The position numbers and the translations under genes are program-made. The notes under the pieces are model-generated. The model was not told the origin of the DNA. It worked only from the letters and a program-made list of their open reading frames with translations, and searched no databases. This document shows, piece after piece, positions 37,422 to 56,589 of a stretch of DNA of 64,000 nt. The stretch's first letter is position 1. Each line of letters begins with the position of its first letter. This DNA is from Frondihabitans sp. PAMC 28766 (lineage in GTDB: Bacteria; Actinomycetota; Actinomycetes; Actinomycetales; Microbacteriaceae): positions 1,426,001 through 1,490,000 of the forward strand of contig NZ_CP014513.1 in NCBI RefSeq assembly GCF_001577365.1, given 5' to 3'.

Positions 37422-37423
37422 CC

Positions 37424-39216: not shown

Positions 39217-39252
39217 CGACGCCGCCCATCGTGGCCGGGACGACGCCCGAGC

Positions 39253-40176
39253 TCAGCGCGTGACCGATCCTGTCAACGACGCCAGCGACCGAAGCACGAT
39301 CGGCCGTGCCGCCATCCAGGCCGCCACTATGACCACCAACGACCCGGCGAAGAAGGCGAAGCCAACCCAGCTGTCGTCGTTGCGGCTCGCATACATGTGA
39401 TTGAGGTTGTTGAGGGCCCCGGTCGCGAACACGAGCGTCACGTGGACGATCACGAAGGCGACGAAGAAGATCATCGTCGGGTAGTGCGTCGCTCGCGCCC
39501 ACGCGAGGGGGAACGCCTTCGAGAGGCGCGGCGCGTTCTTCGGCCACGCCGGCGACATCCTGAGCCCGCTGAACAGCGCGACGGGTGCCGCGATGAAGAC
39601 GACCAGGAAGTAGCTCAGCACCTGCAGCGAGTTGTAGTTCGACCAGCCGTTCTCGGTCGGCCACTGGAGCGAGGCGTACTGCAGCAGGGCCGACACGGCG
39701 TTGGGGAAGACTCCCCACGAGGTCGGCACGATACGGGTCCACTGGCCGGTGCAGAAGACGAGCACCCAGAAGACGATGCCGTTGAGCACCCAGAGCACGT
39801 CGAAGCTGAGGTGCAGCCACAGGTTGATGCTGATGCGCGTCGGTGCGCCCTTCGTGCGGATCCGGCCGCGGTTGTTGCGCGTCCAGTACATGCCGGGCCG
39901 CTGCACCGTCCGGACCATCCACCCCGACCTCACCATGAAGACGAGGAAGAAGACGTTCAGACCATGCTGCCAGCCGACCCACGTGGGGAACCCGACCGGA
40001 GCGAACGACGGCAGCCGGCTCTCGCCCGGATAGCCCGCCAAGAAAGACTGCCCGGGCACACTCGCGCGGATGCCGCGAGCCGCGAGGACGAGAAGGGCGA
40101 GCCCGACGACGATCGCCGGCACGATCCAGACGAGCTTGAACCAGCGGTTCGAGGCCGTGCGGCTGACGCTCGTCAT
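39253..40176 (-). CDS. Di-heme cytochrome b-type membrane protein
   Basis: 307 residues with five to six membrane helices. Candidate heme-binding histidines sit in [30 protein letters not shown] and VIVHVTLVF, the layout of formate-dehydrogenase-gamma/cytochrome b561 subunits. Its ATG overlaps the etfA stop (ATGA). Because ETF normally passes electrons to a membrane quinone reductase and no ETF-QO gene is present here, this protein may serve as the membrane electron acceptor for EtfAB (inference). Confidence 0.8.
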
Positions 40177-41144
40177 GCGCGGACGGCCGCGATCTCGTCG
40201 ATGACCTGCGGCACGATCGTGAAGAGATCGCCGACGATGCCGAAGTCGGCGATATCGAAGATGGGGGCATCGGGGTCGCTGTTGATGGCGACGATCGTCT
40301 TGGCCGTCTGCATGCCGGCCTTGTGCTGGATCGCCCCCGAGATCCCGAGAGCGACGTAGAGATCGGGAGAGATTGTCACGCCCGTCTGGCCGACCTGCGA
40401 GCTCTGCGGCACGAAGCCCGCGTCGACCGCCGCGCGCGAGGCGCCGACCGCCGCCCCGAGGGCGTCGGCCATCCGCTCGACGAGCTCGAAGCGGTCTTTC
40501 GACTGCAGCCCTCGGCCGCCCGAGACGACCCGGGCGGCGCCTCGCAGGTCGGGTCGCGACGACGTCTGCACGACCTCGTGCATGGCGTCGATCACGGTGG
40601 CCGCCTCGCCGTCGACGTCGACGGTGCCGGCGACGACCGTCGGCTCGACGGGCACGGGGTCGTCATCGGCTCCGTCCCGCCGGACGGTGGCGACCAGCGG
40701 GCCACCCTCGACGGTGCTCTCCACGGCGAAGGCCCCGCCGAACGCCGACGTGGTCGCGACGGCGGGGCCGGCGTCGACTCGGACGTCGACCGCGTCGACG
40801 ACGAGCGCCCCGCCCAACCGGATAGCCGTGCGGGCGGCGATCTCGCGCCCGGCGATCGAGTTGGCCACGAGCACGACATCGGCGGACACCTCGCGAGCCG
40901 CCGAGACGACTGCGGCGACCTGAGGGGTTGTCAGCCGTTCTCCGACGGCGTCGCTCTGGATCAGCCGGACGTCGGCGACACCGAGGCGACCCAGCTCCGC
41001 CACGATCTCAGGGTGCGCGGGCGCCCGCGTCACGACCACGGCCGAAGCCGTGCCGAGGCGGGTGGCCGTGGCGGCAAGCGGCGCGACCGTGTCCGACAAC
41101 TGCCCATCGGACGTCGTGTCGGCGAGGAAGAGGATGGAAGGCAT
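40173..41144 (-). CDS. etfA: Electron transfer flavoprotein, alpha subunit
   Basis: 323 residues. The C-terminal FAD domain is clear: [36 protein letters not shown] (in part), [38 protein letters not shown]. With EtfB it takes electrons from acyl-CoA dehydrogenases. ATG, nine bases after etfB; overlaps the cytochrome b gene. The N-terminal half is more divergent than in the housekeeping copy one expects elsewhere, so it is likely pathway-specific. Confidence 0.95.
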
Positions 41145-41153
41145 CGGTGGCTC

Positions 41154-41921
41154 CTAGATCAGGTGTTCGTCGGACAGGAATGCGGCCAGCTCGTGCGCGG
41201 CCGAGCCGTCGTCGACGACCTTGCGGCCCGCCGTCCGTGCGGGCCGCTCGGCCGTCGACAGGACGACGGAGCGCGCTGCCGGCGAGCCGGACTCGCCGAG
41301 GTCGGAGAGCGCCCAGGTGTCCAGAGGCTTCTTCTTGGCTCGCATCGACCCCTTGAAGCCGGGGAATCGCGGCTCGGGCGAGCGCTCGGTGACGGAGGCG
41401 ACCGCAGGAAGCGAGGCGTGGACATCCTGCGTTCCCGCTTCGGTTCCGCGCTCGCCCGAGATGCCGTCCGCGGCGATGGCCAGCGAGTTGAGATAGGTGA
41501 CCTGCGGCACACCGAGGATCTCGGAGAGCATCGGGGCGATGGCACCGCCTCGGCCATCCGTCGACTCGTTGCCGGTGATCACGAGATCGAAGCCCGTTCG
41601 GCGGAGGGCGGCGGCCAGCACGGTGGCTGTCCGCACCATGTCGGAGCCGGCGAGCTCGTCGTCGAGCACGTGCACGGCGGTGTCGGCCCCCATGGCGAGA
41701 CCCTTGCGCAGCACGTCGGTCGCCTCCCGCGGGCCCATGGTCATCACGATGACGTCGGCGTCGTTCGCGTCTTTGTAGGCCAGAGCGGCCTCGAGTGCTC
41801 GCTCGCCCACCTCGTCGATGATGAGGTCGCTCGACGATCGGTCGAGGAGACCCGTCGAGAGGTCGAGGCGGCGTTCGCCCCAGGTGTCGAGAACCTGTTT
41901 CACGAGGACGACGATCTTCAC
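41154..41921 (-). CDS. etfB: Electron transfer flavoprotein, beta subunit
   Basis: 255 residues. KIVVLVKQVLDT start, IDEVGERALEAAL, and the ETF-beta signature region VITGNESTDGRGGAIAPMLSEILG (in part), GVPQVTYL, then RFPGFKGSMRAKKKP. GTG at 41921 overlaps the stop of the nitronate-monooxygenase-like gene (GTGA). It partners EtfA in the same operon. Confidence 0.95.
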   Translation of the reverse strand: MKIVVLVKQVLDTWGERRLDLSTGLLDRSSSDLIIDEVGERALEAALAYKDANDADVIVMTMGPREATDVLRKGLAMGADTAVHVLDDELAGSDMVRTATVLAAALRRTGFDLVITGNESTDGRGGAIAPMLSEILGVPQVTYLNSLAIAADGISGERGTEAGTQDVHASLPAVASVTERSPEPRFPGFKGSMRAKKKPLDTWALSDLGESGSPAARSVVLSTAERPARTAGRKVVDDGSAAHELAAFLSDEHLI

Positions 41922-42946
41922 AGTGCGCTGCCTTTCTCGGGGGATGCGGTGGAGGACGCCGTGGAGCCGACCGGATCGGCGATCGCACGGACGAGGCGTT
42001 GACGGATGACGGATTCGGCATCGCCCACGATTCGGTCGATGAGTTCGGCGCAGGTCGGCACGTCGTCGATCAGCGCCTGCGAGAGTCCGGCCCACCAGAC
42101 GCCGGCCTCGAGGTCGCCTGTCTCGTAGACCGTCCGCCCGCGGCGCCCGGCGACGAGGTCGCGGACGGCGGCGAAGTCGCCTCCGGACGCCAGGATCGCG
42201 ACGACCTCGTCCGACACCGAGTTGCGCGAGACACGCGCCGTGTTGCGCAGCGGGCGGAAGATCAGGTTGGTCTGGAGCTCGTCGCGGGCCACCAGCTCGT
42301 TCTTGACATTCTCGTGAATGGGCGTCTCGACGGTGGCCATGAAGCGCGTCGCCATGAGGACGCCGTCGGCCCCGAGCGCGAGGGCGGCGGCGAGCCCGGC
42401 TCCTGTCGCGACGCCACCGGCGGCGAGGAGGGGGATCTCGACCTGGCGGGCCACGGCGGCCAGCAGCACGAACAGGGGCACGTCGAGCTCGCCGGGATGC
42501 CCGGCCGCCTCGAAGCCGATCACCGCAACGGCATCGGCTCCGGCCTCGGCGGCCTTGACGGCGTGGCGCACGCTCGTCGCCTTGTGCACGACCTTGAGGC
42601 CGGCGTCGTGATAGGTGTCGACGAACAATGCCGGGTTCGACCCGGAGGTCTCGACGACTGCGACGCCGCCGTCGATGATGACGCGCTGGTAGTCGGCGTA
42701 CGGCGGCGGGCTGATCGAGGGCAGCGTCGTCAGGTTGACCGCGAAGGGCCGATCGGTCAGGTCGTGGCAGCGTGCGATCTCGTCCGCGAGGAGTTCGGGG
42801 GTCGCGAACGTGAGGGCGGTGATCGTGCCGAGCCCGCCGGCGTTCGACACGGCAGCGGCGAGATCGGCGTTGCCGATCCACTGCATGCCCCCTTGCATGA
42901 TCGGCGCGCGGACGCCGAATCCATCGGTGAATCTCGTCTTCACCAT
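41918..42946 (-). CDS. Nitronate monooxygenase/2-nitropropane-dioxygenase-like flavoprotein
   Basis: 342 residues, FMN TIM barrel. APIMQGGMQWIGNADLAAAVSNAGGLG at the N terminus (in part), the phosphate-binding LAAGGVATGAGLAAALALGADGV, and GFEAAGHPGE with the conserved His. Family members oxidise nitronates, but some are enoyl reductase- or 2-nitropropane-like enzymes of unknown role in CoA-ester clusters. First gene of the leftward operon, 67 bases from the 26-bp palindrome. Coupling to EtfBA suggests an acyl-CoA redox role (inference). Confidence 0.88.
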   Translation of the reverse strand: MVKTRFTDGFGVRAPIMQGGMQWIGNADLAAAVSNAGGLGTITALTFATPELLADEIARCHDLTDRPFAVNLTTLPSISPPPYADYQRVIIDGGVAVVETSGSNPALFVDTYHDAGLKVVHKATSVRHAVKAAEAGADAVAVIGFEAAGHPGELDVPLFVLLAAVARQVEIPLLAAGGVATGAGLAAALALGADGVLMATRFMATVETPIHENVKNELVARDELQTNLIFRPLRNTARVSRNSVSDEVVAILASGGDFAAVRDLVAGRRGRTVYETGDLEAGVWWAGLSQALIDDVPTCAELIDRIVGDAESVIRQRLVRAIADPVGSTASSTASPEKGSAL

Positions 42947-43013
42947 CGAAGAATCCCTTCCCGGTTCCCGGCGTGCCTCGTTGCAGGCCGGGGAAGATCG
43001 TTCATCGGGAATC

Positions 43014-43039
43014 TTGACTTACGAGCGTTCGTAAGTCAA
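43014..43039. promoter_or_regulatory. 26-bp palindromic operator between the two catabolic operons
   Basis: Perfect 11-bp arms TTGACTTACGA and TCGTAAGTCAA with a GCGT spacer, in the gap between the nitronate-monooxygenase gene and the cyclase gene; it ends 12 bases before the cyclase ATG. Size and symmetry fit a TetR dimer pair; the TetR protein at 48625 in the rightward operon is the natural candidate. Confidence 0.8.
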
Positions 43040-43051
43040 TCTGTCTCCGTG

Positions 43052-43981
43052 ATGAACGATGATGTTCCGGCCTACGACGAGCTGCCCCGGCTCGATCGTC
43101 TCGACATGGCCTACTCGTGGCGCTTCTTCGGCGAGGGCGACCAGCTGGGCGCCCTCAACTACCTGACGCCCGATGTCGTCGCCGCCGCTGGGCGCAGCAT
43201 CGTCTCTGGTGTGACCATCGGCCTCAGCCTCCCCGTCGACGAGCCGAACCCCCCGCTCTTCGGCCGCCAGCCCATTCGCCACGACCACTTCGAAGTCGAC
43301 CGGAACACGTGGGACGACAAGATCGACAACTACTTCCCTCAGGGCTCGACGCAGTGGGACGGCTTCGGCCACGTCCGCGCTCGCGAGTTCGGCTTCTACG
43401 GCGGTGTCCTCGACACGAGCGACCCCCGGCAGACGGGGCTGGGCATCGAGGTGTGGGCTCGGCGCGGCATCGCCGGTCGAGGCGTCCTGCTCGACGTGGC
43501 CGCGCACCTCGAGTCGCAGGGGTCGAGCATCCCGGTCGACGAGGAGTTCGTCATCACGCCCGAACTGCTCGTCGAGGTCGCCGAAGCCGAGGGCGTCACC
43601 GTGCATCGCGGTGACATCGTGCTCGTCCGCACCGGCTGGCCCGCGGCGTACGCGAGTCGGCCGGCCGATGCCGAACCGGTCACCAGGATCCCCGGAATAC
43701 ACGCCGGCGAAGCCACCGCTCGTCTGCTGTGGAACTGGAACGTCGCGGCCATCGCCACCGACACCCCCGCAGTCGAACCCGTTCCCGGAGACCCCGCGGT
43801 CGGATCGCTGCACCGCCGTCTGCTGCCTCTGCTCGGCATCCCGCTCGGAGAGCTGTTCGACCTCGAACGCCTCTCGACCGCCTGCCGGGAAGCCGCCAGG
43901 CACACCTTCTTCATCGCCTCCGCACCACTGAATCTCAGCGGTTCGGCCGGCTCCCCGGGAAACGCGATCGCGATTCTCTGA
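43052..43981 (+). CDS. Cyclase-family metal-dependent hydrolase (kynurenine-formamidase-like)
   Basis: 309 residues of the cyclase/KynB superfamily. The metal motif HxGTHxDxxxH appears as TQWDGFGHV, and a C-terminal segment reads AAIATDTPAVEPVP (Asp/Glu pair), GIPLGELFDLERL. The substitution of the first His by Gln (QWD) is a known subtype. It would hydrolyse an amide, lactone or cyclic acid, so it could open a ring. First gene of the rightward operon; no clear Shine-Dalgarno, and ATG very near the operator suggests a short or leaderless transcript. GTG one codon upstream is possible. Confidence 0.85.
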   Translation: MNDDVPAYDELPRLDRLDMAYSWRFFGEGDQLGALNYLTPDVVAAAGRSIVSGVTIGLSLPVDEPNPPLFGRQPIRHDHFEVDRNTWDDKIDNYFPQGSTQWDGFGHVRAREFGFYGGVLDTSDPRQTGLGIEVWARRGIAGRGVLLDVAAHLESQGSSIPVDEEFVITPELLVEVAEAEGVTVHRGDIVLVRTGWPAAYASRPADAEPVTRIPGIHAGEATARLLWNWNVAAIATDTPAVEPVPGDPAVGSLHRRLLPLLGIPLGELFDLERLSTACREAARHTFFIASAPLNLSGSAGSPGNAIAIL

Positions 43982-44012
43982 AGCACCGCAAACACAGTGA
44001 GGAATCAATTCA

Positions 44013-45242
44013 ATGAAGAATTTTCCAGCCAAACCGGTTCTCGCACTCGGGGCCGTCATCGCCTGCGTGATCGCGCTGAGCGGCTGCTCGAACGGATCAG
44101 GGGGCAGCGGGTCGAACTCCGGACCCATCACGATCGGCGTGGTCGGCCCGCAGACCGGCCCGCTGGCCGAGATCGGCCAGAACCAGGTCGCCGGCGCCGA
44201 GGTGGCCGCCGCTGAGATCAACAAGGCCGGTGGCGTTCTCGGCCGGAAGATCAAGATCGTCAACAAAGACGAGCAGCAGACGCCGCAGACGGCTGCCACC
44301 GCGGTTCGCGACCTCTCGAACAGCGGCGTGCACCTCGTCGTCGGAATGCTCGACAGCGCAGGATGCCTCGCCGTCGCGCCGACCCTGCCGAGTCTCAGCG
44401 TCGCGCTGGTCGACACCGGCTGCACCAACGACGGCCTCACCGGGCAGAACGGCAAGGCGGCGCCCTACGCGAACGTCTTCCGCACCAGCACCGACGACGA
44501 CGATCTCGTGATCAACCTCGCGAAGACCATCGCGAAGAAGTTCCCGTCGGTCACGAACTACTCGGCCTTCGGGTACAACTACATCACCGGCACGTCGCAG
44601 TGGGCGCTCTACCAGAGCTCCCTCAAGAAGGACGGCGTGCCGCTGAAGGTCACGAGCAGCACGTTCGTGCCGATCGCGCAGTCCGACTTCAGCCTCCAGG
44701 TGCAGTCGCTGATCGGCAAGGTGGGAACCCCCAAGACGAGCGCCCTCTACCTCGGCACCTTCGGCAGCGGCACCGGCACCTTCCTCAAGCAGTCGCAGTC
44801 CTACGACATCTCGAAGAAATTCGCGGTGATCCTGCAGCCCGGCGGCTACTACCCGGTGGCCCGCACGCTGAACGGTCTCGCGCCGAACGTGTGGAACGCC
44901 TACGACTACAACTACAAGGCGTTCCCGTCGAAGGCGAACACGCAGTTCGTGAACGACTACAAGGCCAAGACCGGCAAGCTGCCCATCGACTGGAGCTACG
45001 ACTCGTGGGTCGGCGTCAAGGCCATGGCCGCCGCCATCAAGAAGGCCGGCACCGACGACTACGCAAAGGTGCTCGCGACGCTTCCGGGCCTCAGCTTCAC
45101 GACCCTGTCGGGCACGCTGACGATCAACAAGACGACTCACCAGGCCGACGCGCCCGTCGTGGTCACCAACTCCGTCGGCGACACCAAGAGCCCCGAGAAC
45201 GTCAAGATCCTCAGCACGACCGTCGTGAAGACGGGGCACTGA
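44013..45242 (+). CDS. Liv-type ABC transporter substrate-binding lipoprotein
   Basis: 409 residues. Lipoprotein signal with lipobox LSGC (Cys near residue 29), then a periplasmic-binding-protein type I fold: ITIGVVGPQTGPLAEIGQNQ, GAEVAAAEINKAGGVLGRKIKIV (in part). Related systems import branched amino acids, short amides, or aromatic and alicyclic acids; the ligand cannot be read from sequence. ATG with GAGGAA. Followed two bases later by livH. Confidence 0.93.
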   Translation: MKNFPAKPVLALGAVIACVIALSGCSNGSGGSGSNSGPITIGVVGPQTGPLAEIGQNQVAGAEVAAAEINKAGGVLGRKIKIVNKDEQQTPQTAATAVRDLSNSGVHLVVGMLDSAGCLAVAPTLPSLSVALVDTGCTNDGLTGQNGKAAPYANVFRTSTDDDDLVINLAKTIAKKFPSVTNYSAFGYNYITGTSQWALYQSSLKKDGVPLKVTSSTFVPIAQSDFSLQVQSLIGKVGTPKTSALYLGTFGSGTGTFLKQSQSYDISKKFAVILQPGGYYPVARTLNGLAPNVWNAYDYNYKAFPSKANTQFVNDYKAKTGKLPIDWSYDSWVGVKAMAAAIKKAGTDDYAKVLATLPGLSFTTLSGTLTINKTTHQADAPVVVTNSVGDTKSPENVKILSTTVVKTGH

Positions 45243-45243
45243 C

Positions 45244-46131
45244 ATGACAGAGCTGATCTCGACCCTGGTGAGCGGCATCGCCTTCGGTGTGCCCCTCTTC
45301 CTGGTCGCCAGCGGGCTCACGTTGATCTACGGAGTGCTCGGGGTCTTGAACTTCGCCCACGGCTCGCTCTTCGCCGTCGGTGCGCTCGTCGCCACCTCGG
45401 TGATCGGCACGGTGTTCCCGTCGATCCCCGTCTTCATCGGCGCGGCGCTCGTGGGAGCCGTCGTGGTCGGCGTGCTCGGCCTGGTGGTTGAGCGCACCGT
45501 GGTCAGGCGCCTCTACCGCGGCGACCACATCACGATGCTCCTCGCGACGTTCGCGATCCTGCTGATCGTCGAAGGCGCCGCCGAGCTGATCTGGGGCGAC
45601 AGCCCTGCGACGGTCAACCAGCCCAAGCCGCTGAGCGGCAATGTCGAGGTGCTCGGGGCCGCGCTGCCGGCGTACTCGATCCTGCTCGTCGTCATCGGCG
45701 CGGTGTTCGCCGTCGGGCTGTATCTCCTGCTCAACCGAAGCCGCTTCGGTCGCGACGTCAAGGCCATCGCCCAGGACCAGGTGATGGGCGAGGCCGTGGG
45801 TCTCAACACCAAGCGCGTCATGCTGTTGGTGTTCGGCCTGGGGAGCGCTCTGGCGGGGCTGGCCGGCGTGCTCATCGCGCCGACGGTCTCGGTCTCGGCC
45901 AACCTCGGCGACTCGTACATCCTCGAGAGCTTCGCGGTCGTCATCATCGGAGGCCTCGGCTCGATCACGGGCTCGTTGATCGCCTCGATCCTGGTCGGCA
46001 TCACGGAGGCCCTGGCCGTGGCGTACTTCCCCTTCCTCAGCGGCTTCACGTTCTACATCCTCGTGGCCGTCATCCTGCTGGTGCGCCCCCGCGGGCTCCT
46101 CGGCAACGCCCGGATCGGAGCCGCCGCGTGA
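45244..46131 (+). CDS. livH: Liv-type ABC transporter permease (LivH family)
   Basis: 295 residues, eight or so membrane helices. GIAFGVPLFLVASGLTLIYGVLGVLNFAHGS at the start (in part) and the EAA-like cytoplasmic loop GRDVKAIAQDQVMGEAVGLNTKRV identify the LivH branch. With LivM it forms the membrane channel. Its stop overlaps the GTG of livM. Confidence 0.94.
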   Translation: MTELISTLVSGIAFGVPLFLVASGLTLIYGVLGVLNFAHGSLFAVGALVATSVIGTVFPSIPVFIGAALVGAVVVGVLGLVVERTVVRRLYRGDHITMLLATFAILLIVEGAAELIWGDSPATVNQPKPLSGNVEVLGAALPAYSILLVVIGAVFAVGLYLLLNRSRFGRDVKAIAQDQVMGEAVGLNTKRVMLLVFGLGSALAGLAGVLIAPTVSVSANLGDSYILESFAVVIIGGLGSITGSLIASILVGITEALAVAYFPFLSGFTFYILVAVILLVRPRGLLGNARIGAAA

Positions 46132-47161
46132 CGACCAAGACCGCTCCCGGCACCGTGCTCTCGCCCCGCCCCGCCCCGAAAGCCCTGGCCGGCCGACGCA
46201 CCTGGGACATCCGCCCGATCTACGAACCGGCGATCTTCGCGGTCGTCCTGTCGATCGGCTACTTCATCCTCCCGTCGAGCTGGCAGTACACGCTGACGAT
46301 CGGCGTGATCTACTCGCTGCTCGCGACGAGCCTCGGAATCCTCTTCGGATGGACCGGCACCTACACGTTCGGGCACGCCGCGTTCTTCGGGATGGGCGCC
46401 TACGCGACAGCACTGCTGCGCACCGAGTCGTGGGACGCCCTGATCTTTTTGGGGGCGTCGGCGGTCGTCGCCGCGATCGCGGCTGTGGTGATCGGGTTGC
46501 TCGGCGGGCGGCTCGTCAAGGTCGAGTTCGCCATGCTGACCATGATCGTGGGCAGATCGCCTACCTCCTTACCTATAAGATCGGGCCCCTCGGCGGCGAC
46601 AACGGTCTGGTCGGGATCACGCGCGGGTCGGTGTTCGGCTTCAACATCGCGTCGAACAACGACTTCTGGATCTACACGATCGTGGTGATCGCCGTCGTGA
46701 TGGGTGTGCTCCGCCGCATCAACCTGTCGTCGTTCGGGGCGAGTCTCAACGCCATCCGCGACGACCCGGTGAAGGCGGCCTCCATCGGGCTGCCGGTCAA
46801 GGGGCTGCGACTCGCCGCATTCACACTCTCCGGGGCGGTCGCGGGCCTGGCCGGGGCGCTCTTCGCCCAGCAGGGCGGAATCGTCACACCCGACACCCTG
46901 TCGTTCACATTCAGCGGTCAGATCATCATCATGGCGCTGCTCGGCGGCATGTACCGGTTCTGGGGGCCGGCCATCGGCGCACTGATCTTCCAGCTGCTCA
47001 GCACGGCCGTTTTCGGGAACTCGTCGAACGGCACGCTCTACCTGGGCATCATCCTGCTGGTAGTCGTGCTCGTCTTCCCGAAGGGCGTGCTGGGTCTCCT
47101 CGAGCGACTCACCAACCGGTTCCCCGTTCTCGCGCGACTACCCCGAGGGAGGAGACGATGA
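46128..47161 (+). pseudogene. livM: Liv-type ABC transporter permease (LivM family), frame broken once
   Basis: GTG start overlaps the livH stop. The N-terminal part (SIGYFILPSSWQYTLTIGVIY, LLATSLGILFGWTGTYTFGHAAFFGMGAYATALL, in part) and the C-terminal part (IAYLLTYKIGPLGGDNGLVG, LNAIRDDPVKAASIGLPVK) lie in different frames. One extra G in the GGG run at 46550-46552 gives FAMLTMIVGQIAYLL and a continuous protein of about 344 residues. All flanking transporter genes are intact, so consensus error is more likely than loss. Its end overlaps livG (ATGA). Confidence 0.88.
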
Positions 47162-47913
47162 TCGCCCTCGACCTCGTCGGAATCGATAAGAACTACGGCG
47201 GCCCGCCCGTCGTGCAAGACGTCTCGCTCTCGATCGAGGCGGGCGAGACCGTCGCCATCATCGGCCCTAACGGCGCCGGCAAGACGACCCTCTTCGGGGT
47301 GATGGCCGGTGAGACCCGCGCGACGAAGGGTCGGGTGTCGCTCTTCGGCAAAGACGTGACCCGCGCCGGTGCCCGGCACCTCGCCGAGCAGGGGGTCGCC
47401 CGCACCTTCCAGGTCGCGCGGTACTTCCTCGAGAAGACCGTCGAGGAGAACGTCGTCATCGCCCGTCTGGCGCACCAGTCGCGCTACCGCAACCTCGTCT
47501 CGAAGTCGCCGCGAGCCGACGACACTGTCGACCGCGCGCTCGAAGCGGTCGGGCTCACCTCGGCCCGGAGACGACATTCGGCCGCCCTCTCGCACGGTGA
47601 CCGGAAGAGCCTCGAGATCGCGATGGCGCTCGCGCAGGACCCCTCCGTGCTACTCCTCGACGAGCCCACGGCCGGCATGGGCGCCGAAGACATCCCCGGC
47701 ACGATCCAGCTGCTGAAGGACCTCCGCACCTCGAGGCCCGACATGACCTGCGTGATCACTGCCCATGACATGAACGTCGTCTTCGCGCTCGCCGACAAGG
47801 TCGTGCTGCTCGCCAACGGGCGCATCGCGATGCAGGGCCTGCCCTTCGAGGTGCGCGACGCCCCGCTCACCCGGGAGATCTACCTCGGCAATTCGTATCG
47901 GGAGGACAGATGA
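47158..47913 (+). CDS. livG: Liv-type ABC transporter ATP-binding protein (LivG family)
   Basis: 251 residues. Walker A IIGPNGAGKTTLFG, a degenerate signature LSHGDRKSLEIAMAL in place of LSGG, Walker B VLLLDEPTAGM, and H-loop ITAHDMNVVF. LSHG is normal for LivG. It powers import with LivF. Starts and ends in ATGA overlaps. Confidence 0.95.
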   Translation: MIALDLVGIDKNYGGPPVVQDVSLSIEAGETVAIIGPNGAGKTTLFGVMAGETRATKGRVSLFGKDVTRAGARHLAEQGVARTFQVARYFLEKTVEENVVIARLAHQSRYRNLVSKSPRADDTVDRALEAVGLTSARRRHSAALSHGDRKSLEIAMALAQDPSVLLLDEPTAGMGAEDIPGTIQLLKDLRTSRPDMTCVITAHDMNVVFALADKVVLLANGRIAMQGLPFEVRDAPLTREIYLGNSYREDR

Positions 47914-48625: not shown

Positions 48626-49227
48626 TGCTGCTCGAAAAGAACGAAACCGAGACCCGGATCCTGAACGAGGCGCGCAAGCTCTTCAACAGGAAGGGCTACG
48701 TCGGCATGACTCTGCGCCAGATCGCCGGCGCCGTGGGCATGGAGGCCCAGAGCATTTACAACTACACGTCGTCGAAGCAGGCGCTCGTCGAGAAGATGAT
48801 GCGGAACGGCACCGAGGTGCTGCTCGACAAGGTCGAGACCGCGCTCAAGGCCGCGGGGCCCTCCGAGACCGAGCGGCTCTACGCCGCAGTGGGCGCGCAC
48901 ACGGCGCACTACTGCAGCTCGGACGATCTCGTGCTCGTGCGCGACGGCCTGATCCACCTCGACCCCGACGTGCGGGCGGGCCTCGTGACGATGCTCAAGT
49001 CGTACGAGCAGATCTTCAAGGACATCCTGCGCTCGGGAGTCGAGGCGGGGGAGTTCCGAGAACTCGACGTGACGCCGGTGACCTTCGCGATCCTCGGCAT
49101 GGGCGAGTCCGTCATCAACTGGTACCGCCCCGGCGGCCGCCTCACCCCCGATCAGATCGGCGACGAGTACGCCGATCTGGCCCTGCACCTGGTCGGAGCT
49201 CGCTCCGACCATCCGATGATCACCTGA
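48625..49227 (+). CDS. TetR-family regulator of the acyl-CoA locus
   Basis: 200 residues. N-terminal TetR helix-turn-helix: RILNEARKLFNRKGY, MTLRQIAGAVGMEAQSIYNY (in part), SSKQALVEKMM. The C-terminal domain resembles the TetR_C groups of fatty-acid and acyl-CoA-responsive regulators. GTG overlaps the livF stop, so it is made with the transporter. Best candidate to bind the palindrome at 43014-43039; an acyl-CoA intermediate is the likely inducer (inference). Confidence 0.9.
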   Translation: MLLEKNETETRILNEARKLFNRKGYVGMTLRQIAGAVGMEAQSIYNYTSSKQALVEKMMRNGTEVLLDKVETALKAAGPSETERLYAAVGAHTAHYCSSDDLVLVRDGLIHLDPDVRAGLVTMLKSYEQIFKDILRSGVEAGEFRELDVTPVTFAILGMGESVINWYRPGGRLTPDQIGDEYADLALHLVGARSDHPMIT

Positions 49228-49247
49228 CAGAAGGAGAGATCGACGTC

Positions 49248-50372
49248 ATGACAATGACACGATTCGACGACCCCGCGGCCGACCGCTTCCGAGCGGAGGT
49301 CAGCACCTGGGTCGCCGAGGCAATTCCCACAGAGTGGCGGGACACCCGACAGGCGCTCGGGCCCGACGACGTGCAGCGCATCCAGCGCTCGTGGGACGAG
49401 GCGCTGTTCGAGGGAGGCTTCGCGGGGTTGTCCTGGCCCGAGGAGTACGGCGGTCGCGGCTTCGGCCCGATCGAAGACCTGATCTACTACGAGGAGTCGT
49501 CGAAGGCGAACGCGCCCGACGGCTTCGGCAGGATCGGGCGGGTGCTCGCCGGGCCCACGATCATCGCCGCCGGAACCGAGGCGCAGAAGCAGAAGTACCT
49601 GCCCCGCATCCTCGACTCGTCGGAGATCTGGTGCCAGGGCTTCTCGGAACCCGGCGCCGGGTCGGACCTCGCAGCCGTCGGCACCCGAGCCGTCAAGGTC
49701 GACGGCGGCTACCGCATCACCGGCCAGAAGATCTGGACCAGCTTCGCGCAGTACTCGAAGCGTTGCCTCATGCTCGCGAAGAGCTCGACCGAGCTTCCCC
49801 GGCACCACAACCTCAGCTTCTTCCTCCTCGACATGGAGCAGGACGGCATCGACGTCCGCCCCATCCGCCAGATCAACGGCGAGCAGGAGTTCAACGAGGT
49901 CTTCTTCACCGACGTGTTCGTCGCCGACGAAGACCTCATCGGCGGCGAGCACGAGGGCTGGGCTGTCGCCATGACGGTGCTGAGCAACGAGCGCGGCACC
50001 ACCGAGGCCGCAACGCGGCTCGTCGAGGCGACCACCGAGATCGATCTGCTCGGCTCCTGCTGCTCGGCCGACAAACCGCACGACGCGATTCGCCTGCAGG
50101 ATCGCAAGGAGCTGCTCCGATGGCACATCCTCCGTGCCACCGAAGAGAAGGCGGCCGGCGAGGATTGGTTCACCGCCGGCTCGGTGCTGAAGGTGCAGTG
50201 GAGCGAACTGATCCAGGATGCGACGCGGCTCGGCATCGACACCCGCTGCCCCATTCACCGCGACTACTGGCGGCACAGCTATCTGGCGTCGAAGGCGATG
50301 TCCATCTACTCGGGCACGAACGAGATCCAGCGCAACATCATCACCGACCGGGTTCTGAAAGTGGCGAGGTAA
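49248..50372 (+). CDS. Acyl-CoA dehydrogenase, large subunit-like
   Basis: 374 residues. Substrate/FAD segments: GLSWPEEYGGRG, WCQGFSEPGAGSDLAAV, ITGQKIWTSFAQ, then the C-terminal SIYSGTNEIQRNIITDRVL, where the bacterial catalytic base is expected in the preceding helices. It oxidises acyl-CoA to enoyl-CoA, passing electrons to ETF. Directly followed (two bases) by a second, shorter dehydrogenase, the arrangement of heteromeric FadE pairs such as the mycobacterial steroid side-chain enzymes. Two in-frame ATGs begin the gene; the first is used. Confidence 0.93.
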   Translation: MTMTRFDDPAADRFRAEVSTWVAEAIPTEWRDTRQALGPDDVQRIQRSWDEALFEGGFAGLSWPEEYGGRGFGPIEDLIYYEESSKANAPDGFGRIGRVLAGPTIIAAGTEAQKQKYLPRILDSSEIWCQGFSEPGAGSDLAAVGTRAVKVDGGYRITGQKIWTSFAQYSKRCLMLAKSSTELPRHHNLSFFLLDMEQDGIDVRPIRQINGEQEFNEVFFTDVFVADEDLIGGEHEGWAVAMTVLSNERGTTEAATRLVEATTEIDLLGSCCSADKPHDAIRLQDRKELLRWHILRATEEKAAGEDWFTAGSVLKVQWSELIQDATRLGIDTRCPIHRDYWRHSYLASKAMSIYSGTNEIQRNIITDRVLKVAR

Positions 50373-50374
50373 TC

Positions 50375-51210
50375 ATGGCAACGATCGTGGCAGAAGTCGG
50401 AACGATGGCCTCCGACAACGTGGCGGAGATCCTCCAGGATCGAGGCGCGGGCGCTCCGGCCGGGCCCAGTTCCGCCGCCTGGGCCGTCCTGGCCGACGGC
50501 GGCTGGGCGAGCATCTCGGCCGACGCCGAGAACGGGATGGAGCTGCGGGAGATCCAGGAGGTCGCCCGCACCACAGGTCGATTCGCCGTCTCCACCCCGC
50601 TGGTGGCGACCCTTCTGGCGGGCCGCTGGTTCGACCTCGGCGATGACGTGCTCGACCGCGGTGCCGTGCCGCTCGTGCGGCGGGACGACCGCCTGGTGGC
50701 ACCCTATTTCGCCAGCGACGTCGCCATCGTCGACGGTGAGGGCGCCGTCGTCGACGCCGCAGGGGTCGAGACCCTCGTCTTCGCGGATCTGGTGCCCCTC
50801 GGGGCCGTGCACGCTGAACATCCTGCCCTTGAGGGGAGAAGCTCGCCGAAGCACGTGCCGTGTTCGCAGCAGTGGCGGTCGGCTGCGCTGACATCGTGCT
50901 GACGCGCTCGATCGACTGGGCCCGGACCCGTGAGCAGTTCGGCCAGCCCATCAAGGGCTTCCAGGCGGTACGTCACATGCTCGCAGACGCACACATCGCC
51001 CGGGAGCAGGCGTGGACCGCGGCCATCGCGGCCCGGCACGAGGCCTTCCGCGCCGATGTCTGGGCAGCGCAGGCATTCACGCTCGCTCGCCGGAGCATCG
51101 AGCTGGGCATCCAGGTGCACGGCGGCGTCGGCTACACCTGGGAGGTCGGGCTGCAGCACCACCTCGACCAGGTGCTCGAGCTCGACTCCCTCTTCGGAGG
51201 AGACCGGTGA
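50375..51210 (+). pseudogene. Acyl-CoA dehydrogenase, small-subunit-like, frame broken once
   Basis: About 278 residues when repaired, much shorter than a normal acyl-CoA dehydrogenase (about 380), as for the small partner of heteromeric FadE pairs. The N-terminal part lacks the usual FAD loop; the C-terminal part has RSIDWARTREQFGQPIKGFQAVRHMLAD (in part) and GIQVHGGVGYTWE. The two halves are in different frames; one extra G in the run at 50833-50836 joins HPALEG-EKLAEARAVFAA. Its stop overlaps the next gene's GTG. Probably pairs with the dehydrogenase just upstream. Confidence 0.87.
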
Positions 51211-51992
51211 CGCGCCTCGACATCGACCGCCCCGCGACCGGAGTCCTCCGGCTTCGCATGAACGGGCCCGACACCCTGAATGCCCTCGACGAGGGCGTCA
51301 AGGCGCAGCTCGTCGCCGCGCTGCAGGACGCCGCGGCCGACAGGGAGGCGCGCGTCGTCCTCCTCACCGGCACGGGCCGCGCGTTCTCGGCGGGTGGCGA
51401 CATTCGCGCCATGGGCACACGATCCGCCGCGGGCACGATCGACGTGCTCACCTTCGGGCGCGAGATCACGGAGGGCATCGCGGGGCTGCAGAAGCCCGTG
51501 GTCGCCGCGGTCAACGGCCTGGCGTCCGGGGCGGGGTTCAACCTCGCTCTCGCGTCCGACATCATCGTCGCAAGCCCCGCGTGGTTCCAGCAGTCGTTCA
51601 TCCGCATGGGGCTGATGCCCGACATGGGCGGCACGTATCTTCTCGCCCAGGCCATCGGCCTGCATCGGGCGAAGGCGGCGTTGCTCACGGCGCACCGCTT
51701 CAGCACCGACGAGGCGACCGCGCTGGGCTTCGTCTCCCAAGTCTTCGACGGCGACGGCGACTTCGACGCCGACGCCGTCGCGTACTGCGCCGACCTCGCC
51801 AAGCGCGCCCCCCTGGCTCTGGGCCTGACCAAGCTCCTCGCGAATCGTTCGGTCGACGGCACGCTCGCCGACGCTCTCGATCGCGAGACGCTCGCCCAAG
51901 CCGTGCTGTCTTCCACATCCGACCACAAATCGGCCGTCGAGGCGTTTCTCGCGAAGCGCAGTCTCGACGACCTCGTCTTCACAGGAGAATAA
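51207..51992 (+). CDS. Crotonase-family enoyl-CoA isomerase/hydratase
   Basis: 261 residues. Oxyanion-hole motifs AFSAGGDIRAMG and GLASGAGFNLALASDI. The hydratase glutamate position reads SFIRMG instead of PEI, and the next site is PDMGGTYLL, the Asp pattern found in PaaG-type isomerases, so double-bond isomerisation or ring chemistry is more likely than simple hydration (inference). GTG overlaps the preceding stop. Seven-gene context makes it part of the same CoA pathway. Confidence 0.88.
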   Translation: MTRLDIDRPATGVLRLRMNGPDTLNALDEGVKAQLVAALQDAAADREARVVLLTGTGRAFSAGGDIRAMGTRSAAGTIDVLTFGREITEGIAGLQKPVVAAVNGLASGAGFNLALASDIIVASPAWFQQSFIRMGLMPDMGGTYLLAQAIGLHRAKAALLTAHRFSTDEATALGFVSQVFDGDGDFDADAVAYCADLAKRAPLALGLTKLLANRSVDGTLADALDRETLAQAVLSSTSDHKSAVEAFLAKRSLDDLVFTGE

Positions 51993-51994
51993 CC

Positions 51995-52813
51995 GTGCCC
52001 GAATTCGTGACCACCACCGTCGATGGTCGAATCGCCCAAGTGATCCTCGATCGCCCCAAGAAGCTCAACGCTCTGAACGATCCGATGCTCGACGAGTTCT
52101 CGGAGGCCATGGCCGCTCTCGGCCGCGACAAGTCCGTCTCGGTGATCGTGATCTCCGGAGCCGGCCAGAACTTCAGCGTCGGCTACGACGTCGAGCCGTC
52201 GAACGGCTACTCAGAGGCGGCCGCGGGCCTCGCTCCTTACAACGACTGGGAGTCGCTGCGCGCCAACATCGATCGCTGGCTCGCCGTCTGGGACACCCCG
52301 AAGCCGGTCATCAGCGCGATCGAGGGCTACTGCATGGGAGGGGCGACGATGCTCTCCGTCTGCACCGACATCACCGTCGTGAGCGAGACCGCGGTGATCG
52401 GCTGGCCGTCGATCCCTCTCGGCGGCGGCCTCCTGAGCCCGCCGAGCGCGTGGCTGATCGGGCCGAAAAAGGCCAAGGAGCTCTCGTTCATCGCCGGCAG
52501 CCGCCTGTCGGGCACCGAGGCCGCGTCGCTCGGCTGGGCGAACCACGCCGTGGCGCCCGGATCCGTGCTCGACAAGGCGCTCGAGATCGCGGCGAGCATC
52601 TCGAGGATGCCGCTCGAGCTGCTGCGCATGAAGAAGCTCGCCCTCAACCGTGTGATGGACCAGCAGGGCTTCCGCGACTCGATCCTGATGGGTGCCGAGT
52701 GGGACGCGCTCGCCCACACGTCGGCCTCGACGCACATGATGACCGACATGATCACCGAGCGGGGCCTCAAGGGCGCCATCGCGTGGTTCAACTCGGAAGA
52801 GAACCAGTCGTGA
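51995..52813 (+). CDS. Crotonase-family enoyl-CoA hydratase/hydrolase
   Basis: 272 residues. NFSVGYDVEPS and EGYCMGGATMLSVCTDI form the oxyanion hole. The catalytic region reads GWPSIPLGGGLLSPPSAWLIG, where neither canonical hydratase glutamate is kept, so it may hydrolyse a C-C bond or act on a special substrate. GTG with AGGAGA. Its TGA overlaps the synthetase GTG. Divergent from the preceding crotonase, so the two catalyse different steps. Confidence 0.87.
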   Translation: MPEFVTTTVDGRIAQVILDRPKKLNALNDPMLDEFSEAMAALGRDKSVSVIVISGAGQNFSVGYDVEPSNGYSEAAAGLAPYNDWESLRANIDRWLAVWDTPKPVISAIEGYCMGGATMLSVCTDITVVSETAVIGWPSIPLGGGLLSPPSAWLIGPKKAKELSFIAGSRLSGTEAASLGWANHAVAPGSVLDKALEIAASISRMPLELLRMKKLALNRVMDQQGFRDSILMGAEWDALAHTSASTHMMTDMITERGLKGAIAWFNSEENQS

Positions 52814-54264
52814 ACCGCGCGCTCCCGCTCTTCGACTGGGCGTTCTCGCAGGCCGACAAGGCCTGCGTCGTCACCGACTCGGCTACTTACACCTACGGCG
52901 ACATGACCGACGCCATCCGGCGCACGGCCGGTGCGCTGTCGGACATCGTGCATCGCGGCACGCTCGTCGGCGTCTACATCGACAGCACCCCGAACTTCAT
53001 CGTGCACCAGTACGCCGTGTTCTATCTCGGCGGTGTCGTGATGCCGCTCAACCGCGCCATGAAGCCGAGCGAGATCGACGACATCGTCCGAGGGATCGGC
53101 CTCGAGGTGGTCATCGCCGACACGCACCTCGTCCTCGACTCGGCACCCGCCCTGTACGAGGTGTCGGGAGAGTTCTCGAGCCCCGCCGTGTCGGGCGAGC
53201 TGCCGACGATGGAACACCTCGATGCCGACGACGCCGCGATGATCCTGCAGACCTCCGGATCGACAGGCCGGCCGAAGGGCGTGAGGCTTTCGCTGCGCAA
53301 TCTCGCCGCCAACTACGACGCCACCTACCGGTGGATGAACGTCGGCAACCACGACAGGATCCTGCTGCCGCTGCCGATCTTCAACACCTACGGCCTCAAC
53401 CAGGGCATCAACCTGATGGCGATGACCGGGGCGACCCTGCGCCTGCTCCGGCGGTTCACGCCTGAGGGCTTCCAGAGCGCGCTCGACGACACGAAGCCCA
53501 CGTTCATCCCGATGGTGCCGACGATGGTGACCCGGCTGTTCCAGGCCGGCATCCGCTACGACGAAGCCGCGACGGTCGGCATCGGCGCGGCGGCATCGCC
53601 GTCGCAGATCGCCACCGACGCCTGGGCCGTCTTCCCGAACGCCTTCCTCATCTTCGGCTACGGCCTCACGGAGGGCACCGCGATCGCCTCGCAGAACCGG
53701 GTCGGCACGATCGGCCACAACACGGGCGAGTTCGCGTCCGCCGGGCGCATCATGCCCGGGGTGGAGGTGCGCCTCGACGACTCCGCGGGGGACGACGGCC
53801 GGGGCGAGATCCTGATCCACGGCGAATCCGTCTTCTCGGCCTACATCGGCACCGAGGAGGTTCGCCCGGTCGTCGACGGCTGGCTGCACACGGGCGACAT
53901 CGGCACGTTCGCGGACGGCCGGCTCAGCATCGTCGACCGCAAGCGGGAACTGATCATCCGGGGCGGCCAGAACATCTACCCCGGCGAGGTCGAACGGCTG
54001 ATCTCTGCACATCCCGCTGTCCTCGAGGCCGCCGTCGTCGGCGCTCCCGACGCCGACCTCGGCGAGCTGCCAGTGGCCTTCGTCGTGCTGCGCAACGCTT
54101 CGAAGACGTCGCCCGACGAGATCATCGAGTGGCTCCGGCCGCAGGCGGCGTCGTTCAAGGTCCCCATCGCGCTGACGGTGCTCGAATCGATGCCGAAGAC
54201 GCCGACCGGCAAGATCCGCAAGCTCGACCTCCGCGAGATGGTCGCCGGCGGGCTGACGAAATGA
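52810..54264 (+). CDS. AMP-forming acyl-CoA synthetase
   Basis: 484 residues, ANL superfamily. P-loop [71 protein letters not shown] (in part), and the C-terminal lysine in [13 protein letters not shown]. It activates a carboxylic acid to its CoA ester, feeding the dehydrogenases upstream. A little shorter than typical FadD at the N terminus. GTG overlaps the crotonase stop. Specificity unknown. Confidence 0.93.
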
Positions 54265-54271
54265 GCCGGGC

Positions 54272-54750
54272 ATGCTGACGCTGACGGGAACGGACGAAGT
54301 CGTCGGCGCGGTCGGCCGCGAGCTCGGCACAGGGTCGTGGTTCGAGGTGTCGCAGGCCGTGATCGACGGGTTCGCCGACGTGACAGGCGACGACCAGTGG
54401 ATCCACGTCGACCTCGACGCCGCTCGGGGGGCCCGTTCGGCGAGACCATCGCCCACGGATACCTCACGCTGTCGCTCATTCCGAAGCTCGCGCGGGACGC
54501 CTACGCGCTGGCCGGGTTCAGGATGCTGGTCAACTACGGCCTCGATCGCGTCAGGTTCCCCGCCATCGTGCCGTCGGGCTCGCGGGTGCGCGACCGGGCG
54601 ACGCTCCTCTCGGCCGACCCGGGCGAGCGCGGCATGCGGATCGTGGTGCGTCACACCGTCGAGATCGACGGCGCCACGACGCCGGGCTGCGTCGCGGACT
54701 CGATCACGCTGCTCGTGCCGGACCGCGTCGGCGTGGCGACCCATGTCTGA
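54272..54750 (+). pseudogene. MaoC-like (R)-hydratase, frame broken once
   Basis: Hot-dog fold of the MaoC/FabZ type: [24 protein letters not shown] (in part) in frame one, then [18 protein letters not shown] in frame two, where the conserved D..H..HG catalytic pattern sits. One extra G in the six-G run at 54426-54431 makes [14 protein letters not shown] and a 159-residue protein. It would hydrate a trans-2-enoyl-CoA. It ends eight bases inside the next gene. Confidence 0.87.
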
Positions 54751-55501
54751 ACCGGGCGGCGGGTTGCTCGAGGGCAGGATCGCGGTCGTCACCGGTGCGG
54801 CACAGGGTCTCGGCTACGCCATCGCCGAGCTGTTCGCGGCGAACGGCGCCTCGATCGTGATCGGCGACCTCGACGGCGATAGGGCCATGGCCGCGGCAGC
54901 TCGGCTCGGCATCGGCCCTCGAGCGTTCGGGGTGGCATGCGACGTGACGGTGCCCGACGACGTCGACGCGCTGCTCGCCGCCGCGACGACGACGTTCGGC
55001 CGCCTCGACGTGATGGTCAACAACGCCGGAGTCACTCGCGACCTCACGATGCGGAAGATGAGCGTCGACGACTTCCAGTTCGTCATCGACGTGCACCTGC
55101 GAGGCACCTGGCTGGGCACCAAGGCGGCCACGTCGATCATGCGCGAGCAGGGCACGGGCGGCGCGATCATCAACATGTCGTCGATCTCGGGCAAGGTCGG
55201 CAACCCCGGCCAGACCAACTACAGCGCCGCCAAGGCGGGAATCGTCGGCCTGACCAAGGCCGCCGCGAAAGAGGTCGGCTTCGCCGGGATCCGGGTCAAC
55301 GCCCTGCAGCCCGGCATCATCGAGACCGCGATGACCCAGAAGCTCAGCGACGAGATCCGGGCGCAGCGGCTCGCAGACGTCCCACTCGGTCGTTTCGGCG
55401 AACCGGAAGAGGTCGCGAAGGTCGCCCTCTTCCTTGCCAGCGACCTCGCCAGCTACGTCACCGGGGTGGTCGTCGAGATCGCCGGCGGCCGCAACATCTG
55501 A
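54743..55501 (+). CDS. FabG-like 3-oxoacyl/3-hydroxyacyl-CoA short-chain dehydrogenase
   Basis: 252 residues. [31 protein letters not shown], catalytic S in [11 protein letters not shown], YxxxK in [21 protein letters not shown] end. With a MaoC hydratase directly before it, it should oxidise the 3-hydroxyacyl-CoA to the 3-keto ester. ATG overlaps the MaoC stop. Confidence 0.92.
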
Positions 55502-55513
55502 GGGGACCATCCC

Positions 55514-55747
55514 ATGACAGCAAGTTTCGTCTACGACGGGCTGAGAACGCCGTTCGGCCGATTCGGCAGGGCGCTCGCCGGAGTGCGACCCGACGATCTC
55601 GCCGCCACGGTGCTGCGCGATCTGATGGCCCGGCACCCGGACGTTTACCCGTCGCTGATCGACGACGTGATCCTCGGCGACGCCAACCAGGCCGGAGAGG
55701 ACAACCGGAACGTGGCGCGGAGCCTCGCCGTCGTGCTCGAACGATGA
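55514..55747 (+). pseudogene. Acetyl-CoA C-acyltransferase (thiolase) with internal deletion
   Basis: 77 residues only. The N terminus is plainly thiolase (YDGLRTPFGRFGRALAGVRP, DDVILGDANQAGEDNRNVAR), but where the catalytic-cysteine loop (NRLCGSG) should follow, the frame passes straight into SLAVVLER and a stop. That ending resembles the usual thiolase C terminus (...GQGxAVVLER). So some 310 codons appear to be missing in frame, including both active-site cysteines and the GHP/NxNGG blocks. Its TGA overlaps the thioesterase ATG. As written it cannot be an enzyme. Confidence 0.82.
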
Positions 55748-56589
55748 CCGCCGGCGCGCGCGGGCTGGATTCGCGACTCACCGACCTGCTCGACCTCAAG
55801 TACCTCGGTCGAGGCGCCTTCGAAGGCGCCTCGTACCCGGGGCGGGGTGGACGGCTGTTCGGCGGCCAGATCCTCGGACAGGCCGTCGTCGCCGCGACCG
55901 CGAGCGTGCCGGTCGAGCGCTCCGTGCACTCGGTCCACGCGTATTTCCTTGCCGTGGGCGATTCGCGTCGGTCTGTGCTCTATCGGGTCGAGACCCTCCG
56001 CGACGGAGGGTCGTTCTCGAGCCGACGCGTCACCGCACTGCAGGGCGACGACATCATCTTCACGATGGAGGCGTCGTTCCAGGCGCCTGCATCGGGCGTC
56101 GACCACCAGTCGGCTCTCGTCGGCGACTTCCCCGACCCCGAGTCGCTGCCGCGTGACCTTTCCGACGGCGACGGGGTGGCGATGTCGCATCGCAGCATCT
56201 TCGACATCAGGCGGGTTCCCTCTGGGCCGAGTTCGAGCGCCACGACGGGTCAAGCCGTCTGGCTGCGTGCGCCGTCGCCTCTTGCTGCGGCGGCCCCGGT
56301 GCACCGCGCCGCCCTGGCGTTCGGCAGCGACTTCACCCTGATGGAGCTGCCGGTGCGCCGTCACGGCATGACCTTCGACGAACCGCGTCTGCGGGTGGCG
56401 AGTCTCGATCACTCGATGTGGTGGCACGCCGACGCACCCGTCGACGACTGGCTGCTCTACGTGCAGGAGAACCCGTGGGCAGGATCGGGCCGGGCGCTCG
56501 TCTCAGGGTCGCTCTACGACCGGAGCCGCCGGCTCGTCGCCACGATCGTGCAGGAAGGAATGGTGCGGCTCAAGCCGCCGGCGACTTAG
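55744..56589 (+). CDS. TesB-type acyl-CoA thioesterase II
   Basis: 281 residues with tandem hot-dog domains. GGRLFGGQILGQAVVAATASV, HSVHAYFLAVGD, SSRRVTALQGDDIIF, then the second domain with LRVASLDHSMWWHA (catalytic Asp) and SGRALVSGSLYD. It releases CoA from acyl-CoAs, perhaps to relieve stalled intermediates. ATG overlaps the thiolase remnant's stop. Last gene of the rightward operon; the RamB-like gene converges on it. Confidence 0.92.
   Translation: MTAGARGLDSRLTDLLDLKYLGRGAFEGASYPGRGGRLFGGQILGQAVVAATASVPVERSVHSVHAYFLAVGDSRRSVLYRVETLRDGGSFSSRRVTALQGDDIIFTMEASFQAPASGVDHQSALVGDFPDPESLPRDLSDGDGVAMSHRSIFDIRRVPSGPSSSATTGQAVWLRAPSPLAAAAPVHRAALAFGSDFTLMELPVRRHGMTFDEPRLRVASLDHSMWWHADAPVDDWLLYVQENPWAGSGRALVSGSLYDRSRRLVATIVQEGMVRLKPPAT

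Follow-up and report, generated by a model that had tools for sequence, protein, structure and literature searches.

Gene content, candidate operator and distribution

We analysed a window of 64,000 nucleotides from Frondihabitans sp. PAMC 28766 (Microbacteriaceae; contig NZ_CP014513.1, positions 1,426,001 to 1,490,000), part of a 4.77-Mb genome in four contigs, which carries a catabolic module of about 21 genes (window positions 38452–56589) in two divergent arms around one palindrome. Profile matches confirmed the gene families that an earlier note, made from the sequence alone, had listed for both arms; the palindrome stood as well, while its account of extent, gene overlap and frame integrity needed correction. 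The minus-strand left arm encodes an FMN flavoprotein of the nitronate monooxygenase (NMO) superfamily (41918–42946), the electron transfer flavoprotein (ETF) subunits EtfB (41154–41921; PF01012, 125.2 bits for the enclosing open reading frame (ORF)) and EtfA (40173–41144; PF00766, 117.3 bits), and a membrane cytochrome b (39253–40176), the candidate acceptor of ETF electrons. The flavoprotein, annotated as nitronate monooxygenase, is 79% identical to its relative in Cnuibacter physcomitrellae, which matches the NADH:quinone oxidoreductase PA1024 (PDB 2gjl) with 397 bits; EtfB is 65% identical to the Cnuibacter protein. The cytochrome could not be assigned to the b561/Ni-hydrogenase cytochrome family PF01292 (27.1 bits against a cut-off of 30.1), and its Cnuibacter relative is annotated 'cytochrome b/b6 domain-containing protein'.

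The plus-strand right arm opens with a cyclase-family hydrolase (43049–43981; PF04199, 53.2 bits, cut-off 23.1) and a five-gene Liv-type transporter, comprising a substrate-binding protein (44013–45242; PF13458, 194.4 bits), LivH-type (45244–46131; PF02653, 135.3 bits) and LivM-type (46128–47161; PF02653 in two frames) permeases, and LivG-type (47158–47913; PF00005, 115.2 bits) and LivF-type (47910–48625; PF00005 in two frames) ATPases. A TetR-family regulator (48625–49227; TetR_N 41.4 and TetR_C_24 101.3 bits), predicted to be an acyl-CoA-responsive repressor, precedes the large and small subunits of an acyl-CoA dehydrogenase, ACAD1 (49248–50372; three Acyl-CoA_dh domains) and ACAD2 (50375–51210; PF00441). 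The remainder consists of the crotonases ECH1 (51207–51992) and ECH2 (51995–52813; ECH_1, 111.8 bits for the enclosing ORF), an acyl-CoA synthetase (52810–54264; AMP-binding 196.3 and AMP-binding_C 69.5 bits), a MaoC-type hydratase (54272–54750), a FabG-like short-chain dehydrogenase/reductase (SDR) that would act as 3-hydroxyacyl-CoA dehydrogenase (54743–55501; adh_short_C2, 217.5 bits for the enclosing ORF), a thiolase remnant (55514–55747) and a TesB-like acyl-CoA thioesterase (55744–56589; PF02551, 98.9 bits for the enclosing ORF). ECH1 and ECH2 are divergent in sequence, as described earlier, but their genes are neighbours on the same strand. Compared with the residues that we take to be catalytic in the rat enzyme and in PaaG, ECH1 appears PaaG-like, ECH2 has neither hydratase glutamate and a third crotonase, ECH3, has the first.

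ECH3 (38452–39216, plus strand; Pfam ECH_1 170.9 bits; NCBIfam NF006100 290.9 bits, above the cut-off of 282) moves the left edge outwards from 39253, where the earlier note had placed it, to 38452. It lies where homology with F. sucicola begins on the left (38476–56578 by blastn), and sequence left of 38476 found no counterpart in the 77-kb F. sucicola sequence compared. In Cnuibacter and in a further host genome, G011, the ECH3 relative sits within the right arm.

Between the arms lies the near-palindrome TTGACTTACGAGCGTTCGTAAGTCAA (43014–43039), symmetric at 24 of 26 positions and 10 bases before the cyclase start, which we regard as an operator candidate for both. Allowing ≤3 mismatches, the genome has no second site of this kind, and none of 100 shuffled windows contained a match. 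Each of the five host species (the window strain, F. sucicola, Cnuibacter, Cryobacterium sp. Y50 and G011) carries it in this position, although it is weaker in Cryobacterium sp. Y50 (20/26) and present in two copies in G011. A promoter scan of the sequence between the arms gave no sigma-70-type candidate. A search for conserved gene order in other Actinobacteria, which the earlier note had proposed, found the same order in these five species as far as their contigs reach. Between the window and F. sucicola, dN/dS was 0.03–0.23 over 24 gene pieces, and purifying selection acts on every gene compared. Because a single operator site, a two-arm layout kept in five species and purifying selection coincide, there is good support for the prediction that one operator governs both import and CoA-dependent β-oxidation.

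The operon is rare: of 396 genomes across the phylum, five matched the cyclase at E ≤ 1e-50, namely the window's own and four others with 38–42% identity, so that no additional close relative came to light. With the synthetase as query, a protein of 65–85% identity was found in 3 of 59 other relatives, the next best being 35%, and two loci came from a pattern-limited scan across 84,980 species genomes. In C. physcomitrellae the operon resides on plasmid NZ_CP020716 (the same genes as in genome G031), which was typed as mobilizable. The locus is a real, conserved and rare peripheral catabolic module.

The earlier statement that almost all genes overlap was too broad: 10 of 18 same-strand junctions do so, by 1–8 bases (8/15 in the right arm, 2/3 in the left), and the other eight have gaps of 1–31 bases, the acad2 and acs starts and the etfB end having been read off afterwards for this count. 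The flanks differ between the Frondihabitans genomes. A phosphoenolpyruvate carboxykinase (PEPCK) region lies directly to the right of the module in the window and only after 11.5 kb in F. sucicola (G005:C1, about 80300–91770), a stretch not present in the window. To the left, window positions 31226–38455 hold oxidoreductase, amidohydrolase, FAD monooxygenase-like, aldo/keto reductase, major facilitator superfamily (MFS) and epimerase/3beta-HSD-like genes, all without a counterpart in that 77-kb F. sucicola sequence.

The EtfBA–cytochrome cassette

We found good evidence that EtfB, EtfA and the cytochrome form a recurring cassette. A second set adjoins valine-degradation genes elsewhere in the host genome (G000:C1:3944000-3958000). 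Among 218 Micrococcales genomes, a sample that partly overlaps our 60 relatives, 57 carry the cytochrome, and in at least 30 of these, from five families, the cytochrome gene has an ETF alpha gene upstream of it in the same orientation, at a distance below 2 kb (at least 33 of 64 places). ETF genes were present in 51/57 genomes with the cytochrome versus 109/161 without it (P = 0.0015, treating genomes as independent, which they are not; this holds for all association P values given here). In 37 Microbacteriaceae, the cytochrome occurs in 8/8 ETF-bearing versus 8/29 ETF-less genomes (P = 0.0003), and beside the ETF genes in seven of those eight. Over all 60 relatives there was no association between presence of ETF and of the cytochrome (P = 0.16). 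As eight ETF-less Microbacteriaceae of the 60-genome sample carry it, the cytochrome has some other use too. Several of the 218 genomes possess a second ETF without a cytochrome.

We next consider what the cytochrome may replace. No ETF-QO domain (Fer4_ETF_QO) was found in the host genome or in the 37 Microbacteriaceae, and 2 of 60 relatives gave a match of about 25 bits. Nor did the host genome yield an EtfD-type membrane iron–sulfur protein with two CCG domains; its single CCG match lies in an ORF that appears, by eye, to be a fusion of an FAD-linked oxidase with an iron–sulfur part. Of 26 ETF-bearing relatives, 11 have the cytochrome, 10 an EtfD-type frame and none both (P = 0.0007 by genome; P = 0.06 at the level of 16 families), where an open frame of ≥700 amino acids with two CCG matches counts as EtfD-type, a criterion set after viewing the list. 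Counting G011, whose open frame with two CCG matches is 599 amino acids long and which also carries the cytochrome, the exclusion weakens to P = 0.005. Histidines 71, 122, 231 and 245 of the cytochrome are invariant in 11/11 aligned sequences, taken from 27 match places. A profile of these 11 had no hits among solved structures, and a single-sequence structure model (predicted local distance difference test (pLDDT) 52) was too poor for use.

These observations provide moderate evidence, drawn from gene neighbourhoods and occurrence, that the cytochrome may oxidize reduced ETF. Going further, we tentatively suggest that the left arm could be a third, non-homologous kind of ETF:menaquinone oxidoreductase that replaces EtfD and ETF-QO in Micrococcales, here as a copy dedicated to a terpenoid-acid pathway with PF04199 ring opening. 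If so, it would be a new solution beside EtfD and would explain how acyl-CoA oxidation is linked to the respiratory chain in Microbacteriaceae that have ETF and no recognized ETF dehydrogenase. The cassette, as a candidate new ETF:menaquinone oxidoreductase, is the boldest part of our proposal and the part of the module most worth testing; a literature search found no paper on an EtfBA–cytochrome b561-type pair. G011 shows two peculiarities here: the EtfBA–cytochrome arm occurs twice, inverted (3430 bp, 99.9%), followed by CoA-transferase genes (G011:C1:2838000-2857999), a duplication or an assembly effect, and its cytochrome (L027, 17691–19340) is extended at the N terminus by a long stretch in which RRGLPR..GG.PWP-like motifs repeat.

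Kinship with P450cin clusters and the probable substrate

Using tblastn, we sought relatives of the cyclase, ACAD1, ECH2, synthetase and flavoprotein in plasmids. After Cnuibacter, the nearest relatives of the cyclase were in Rhodococcus pyridinivorans P23 and R. opacus G13 (both 46%), and the same two came next for ACAD1 (52% and 50%); for ECH2, the search tool's ranking put P23 (41%) directly after Cnuibacter and G13 in fourth place. In P23 these genes belong to a cluster with a P450 that matches P450cin (872 bits), a luciferase-like monooxygenase (LLM) that matches 3,6-diketocamphane monooxygenase (341 bits), and flavodoxin, biotin carboxylase and CoA-transferase genes. G13 has the cluster at 64–96% identity for the tested genes that were found, with P450cin at 92%. 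Judging from their P450cin, both clusters presumably degrade 1,8-cineole. Conversely, the P23 lower-pathway proteins found counterparts in the window: the cyclase at 47%, the paired ACAD at 51% and 48% (the latter over the C-terminal third of ACAD2 only) and ECH2 at 41%. A biotin carboxylase and a 3-oxoacid CoA-transferase lie beyond the cytochrome gene in Cnuibacter and G011, as in the cineole clusters; on the Cnuibacter plasmid (NZ_CP020716, 205983–212667), biotin carboxylase subunits, BioY, the 3-oxoacid CoA-transferase and a thiolase adjoin that gene. It is plausible that the Cnuibacter block is a methyl-ketone carboxylation block of the kind also present in P450cin clusters.

On this basis, we put the probability at about 0.5 that the module imports, CoA-activates, β-oxidizes and ring-opens a cyclic acid of plant origin, probably derived from a monoterpenoid of the 1,8-cineole/terpineol kind. 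The class of substrate is probable from these kinships; for the individual substrate, our best guess is an acid of the dimethyl-oxobutyl-dihydrofuranone kind, such as homoterpenylic or terpenylic acid. A literature search found no paper on bacterial breakdown of acids of this type. A characterized 'cyclase'-family enzyme opens the C–C bond of a cyclic β-diketone by retro-Claisen hydrolysis, and the family also has an isatin hydrolase (PMC10470551). The PF04199 protein is therefore plausibly able to open a lactone or a cyclic dione. Bacterial cineole breakdown, in the part of the review PMC4097962 that describes it, ends at a lactone ketone, a dimethyl-oxobutyl-dihydrofuranone; because of this, the operon and its P450cin-cluster relatives matter as candidate genes for the lower cineole steps.

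Several points weigh against this reading. The genes common to the module and the P450cin clusters are just 33–52% alike (ACAD2 32–33%, synthetase 26–27%), so the substrates of the two may differ. The best plasmid relative of the synthetase outside Cnuibacter reaches only 34%, the flavoprotein has its best relative on a different Rhodococcus plasmid (62%), and ECH2 matches a Mycobacterium branderi plasmid with more bits (206) than P23 (195) or G13 (190). The kinship search was confined to plasmids, and chromosomal relatives could be nearer. Queried with P23 proteins, the window gave no match above 90 bits to P450cin with its redox partners or to the LLM-type oxygenase (the rest of the genome was not searched), and no carboxylase relative; the best host-genome match to the Cnuibacter carboxyltransferase is 32%, and that protein is 35% identical to its P23 counterpart. 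The best solved relative of the Liv binding protein (72 bits) is too remote to name a ligand, an AlphaFold model of the cyclase built on three sequences (pLDDT 38) was too poor for its metal site, and the reactions and regulation are read from sequence. The thiolase is deleted: as the earlier note had recognized, a remnant is left, here 77 amino acids of about 390–400, after an in-frame loss of 936 bp relative to F. sucicola. The earlier description of a complete pathway was consequently too strong, all the more as the window yielded neither a first terpene-oxidation enzyme nor a Cnuibacter-type biotin carboxylase/CoA-transferase block.

None of the scanned proteins reached a pathway-specific NCBIfam cut-off; only generic FabG (Cnuibacter SDR, NF004198, 337.9 versus 296) and a crotonase subfamily passed. 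The Cnuibacter ECH2 reached no cut-off among the 25 families listed. Cyclohexanecarboxylate pathway identities fell short (TIGR03207, 54.3 versus 575; NF043006, 90.4 versus 650), as did the pimeloyl-CoA (pim) pathway. The nearest NCBIfam to ACAD1 is pimC, the pimeloyl-CoA dehydrogenase large subunit (210.5 bits, cut-off 623.85), and that to the Cnuibacter thiolase is 3-oxoadipyl-CoA thiolase. Both are enzymes of linear dicarboxyl-CoAs, and with the generic SDR, MaoC, ECH3 and thioesterase they would suit an ordinary β-oxidation operon whose substrate is acyclic (a medium-chain, branched or dicarboxylic acid) and in which the cyclase-family protein hydrolyses something unrelated. However, apart from the SDR and ECH3 the scores lie far under the equivalog cut-offs, and all five species have kept the cyclase gene, which P450cin clusters also contain together with the ACAD pair. 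We consider such an operon unlikely, albeit the strongest competitor.

Frame integrity raises a different concern. In the window, livM (near 46549), livF (near 48229), acad2 (near 50832) and maoC (near 54425) have no single open frame, and F. sucicola shows breaks in ech3, the cytochrome, flavoprotein and binding-protein genes, livH, acad2, ech2 and maoC. Together with the thiolase deletion, and with the maoC break lying at nearly the same codon in the two genomes, the four breaks might be true mutations of a decaying, partly non-functional operon. However, the break sets are mostly different and the breaks in both genomes fall at or beside short G/C runs; the host genome's valine-degradation cluster has a break of the same kind in a 3-hydroxyisobutyryl-CoA hydrolase-like gene (judged by eye). 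Because dN/dS stays at 0.03–0.23 in broken genes too, the four breaks are probably sequencing error, and decay seems improbable.

More doubtful still is an operon for degrading the steroid CD ring (HIP, KstR2-type) or a related polycyclic compound. The best NCBIfam hit of the Cnuibacter ACAD2 is IpdE2, the closest solved relatives of ACAD1 by sequence are 4x28 and 6wy8/6wy9, which we take to act on steroid CoA esters, and the KstR2 regulon presumably also has a TetR regulator, synthetase, SDR, crotonases and an NMO-like flavoprotein. Yet the Cnuibacter proteins miss the IpdE2 (58.7 versus 450 bits) and FadD3 (235.3 versus 657 bits) cut-offs, by which the HIP/KstR2 identity was rejected, and a CoA-transferase-type IpdAB was not among the cluster proteins scanned. 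The least probable reading is a phenylacetate-like or other aromatic-acid pathway, to which the Cnuibacter ECH1 (nearest PaaG, TIGR02280, 167.8 bits against a cut-off of 345) and MaoC (nearest PaaZ hydratase domain, 51 bits against 563) show similarity only under the cut-offs; the module yielded neither a ring oxygenase nor a ring reductase. The earlier hint of a cyclic or aromatic-derived acid therefore divides: the P450cin-cluster relatives of the cyclase, ACAD1 and ECH2, and the solved relatives of ACAD1, favour a cyclic one, and nothing specific favours an aromatic one.

Proposed route and comparison with known systems

The gene families, their layout, the conserved operator and the P450cin kinship come from computation; for a cyclic, terpenoid-type acid, the following route can be inferred. 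A TetR-type repressor would occupy the single operator between the divergent operons until the CoA ester of the substrate frees both. The Liv-type ATP-binding cassette transporter would take up the acid, the synthetase form its CoA ester and the ACAD1/ACAD2 pair introduce an α,β double bond; ECH3 and MaoC could then hydrate, PaaG-like ECH1 shift the double bond and the FabG-like SDR continue β-oxidation. The PF04199 hydrolase might open the ring, as a lactone or cyclic β-dione, perhaps with help from ECH2, and a 3-oxoadipyl-CoA-type thiolase, encoded in the relatives, would close the round; with this gene deleted in the window, another thiolase must serve. Electrons would pass from ACAD through EtfBA and the membrane cytochrome to menaquinone, while the PA1024-like flavoprotein is predicted to reoxidize NADH.

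No paper assigning this gene set to a pathway was found in the open-licence literature, in line with the earlier note, which knew of no characterized pathway with it. The closest known systems are the P450cin clusters of P23 (NZ_CP113799) and G13 (NZ_CP110470), which likewise unite the cyclase, both ACAD subunits, ECH2, a thiolase, TetR and an AMP-forming synthetase, and whose biotin carboxylase/CoA-transferase block stands beside the operon in two of its five hosts. In contrast, the module has a Liv importer where the clusters have MFS, adds EtfBA–cytochrome and the PA1024-like flavoprotein, and shows none of P450cin, its redox partners or the LLM oxygenase in the window. The KstR2/HIP regulon of mycobacteria and rhodococci shares the paired ACAD and CoA synthetase alongside the genes named above; the module differs in adding the Liv importer and cyclase. 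With the Pseudomonas aeruginosa PA1024 system the module shares a homologous flavoprotein, and R. rhodochrous GD02 has a similar flavoprotein–ECH–ACAD grouping; the operon as a whole is different, and the NADH:quinone activity is a prediction for the module's protein. EtfD and ETF-QO are iron–sulfur proteins, the former structurally described in 2026 (PMC13083937). The cytochrome would share their role as membrane acceptor for reduced ETF, but it is a four-histidine b-type membrane protein without a CCG iron–sulfur or ETF-QO domain.

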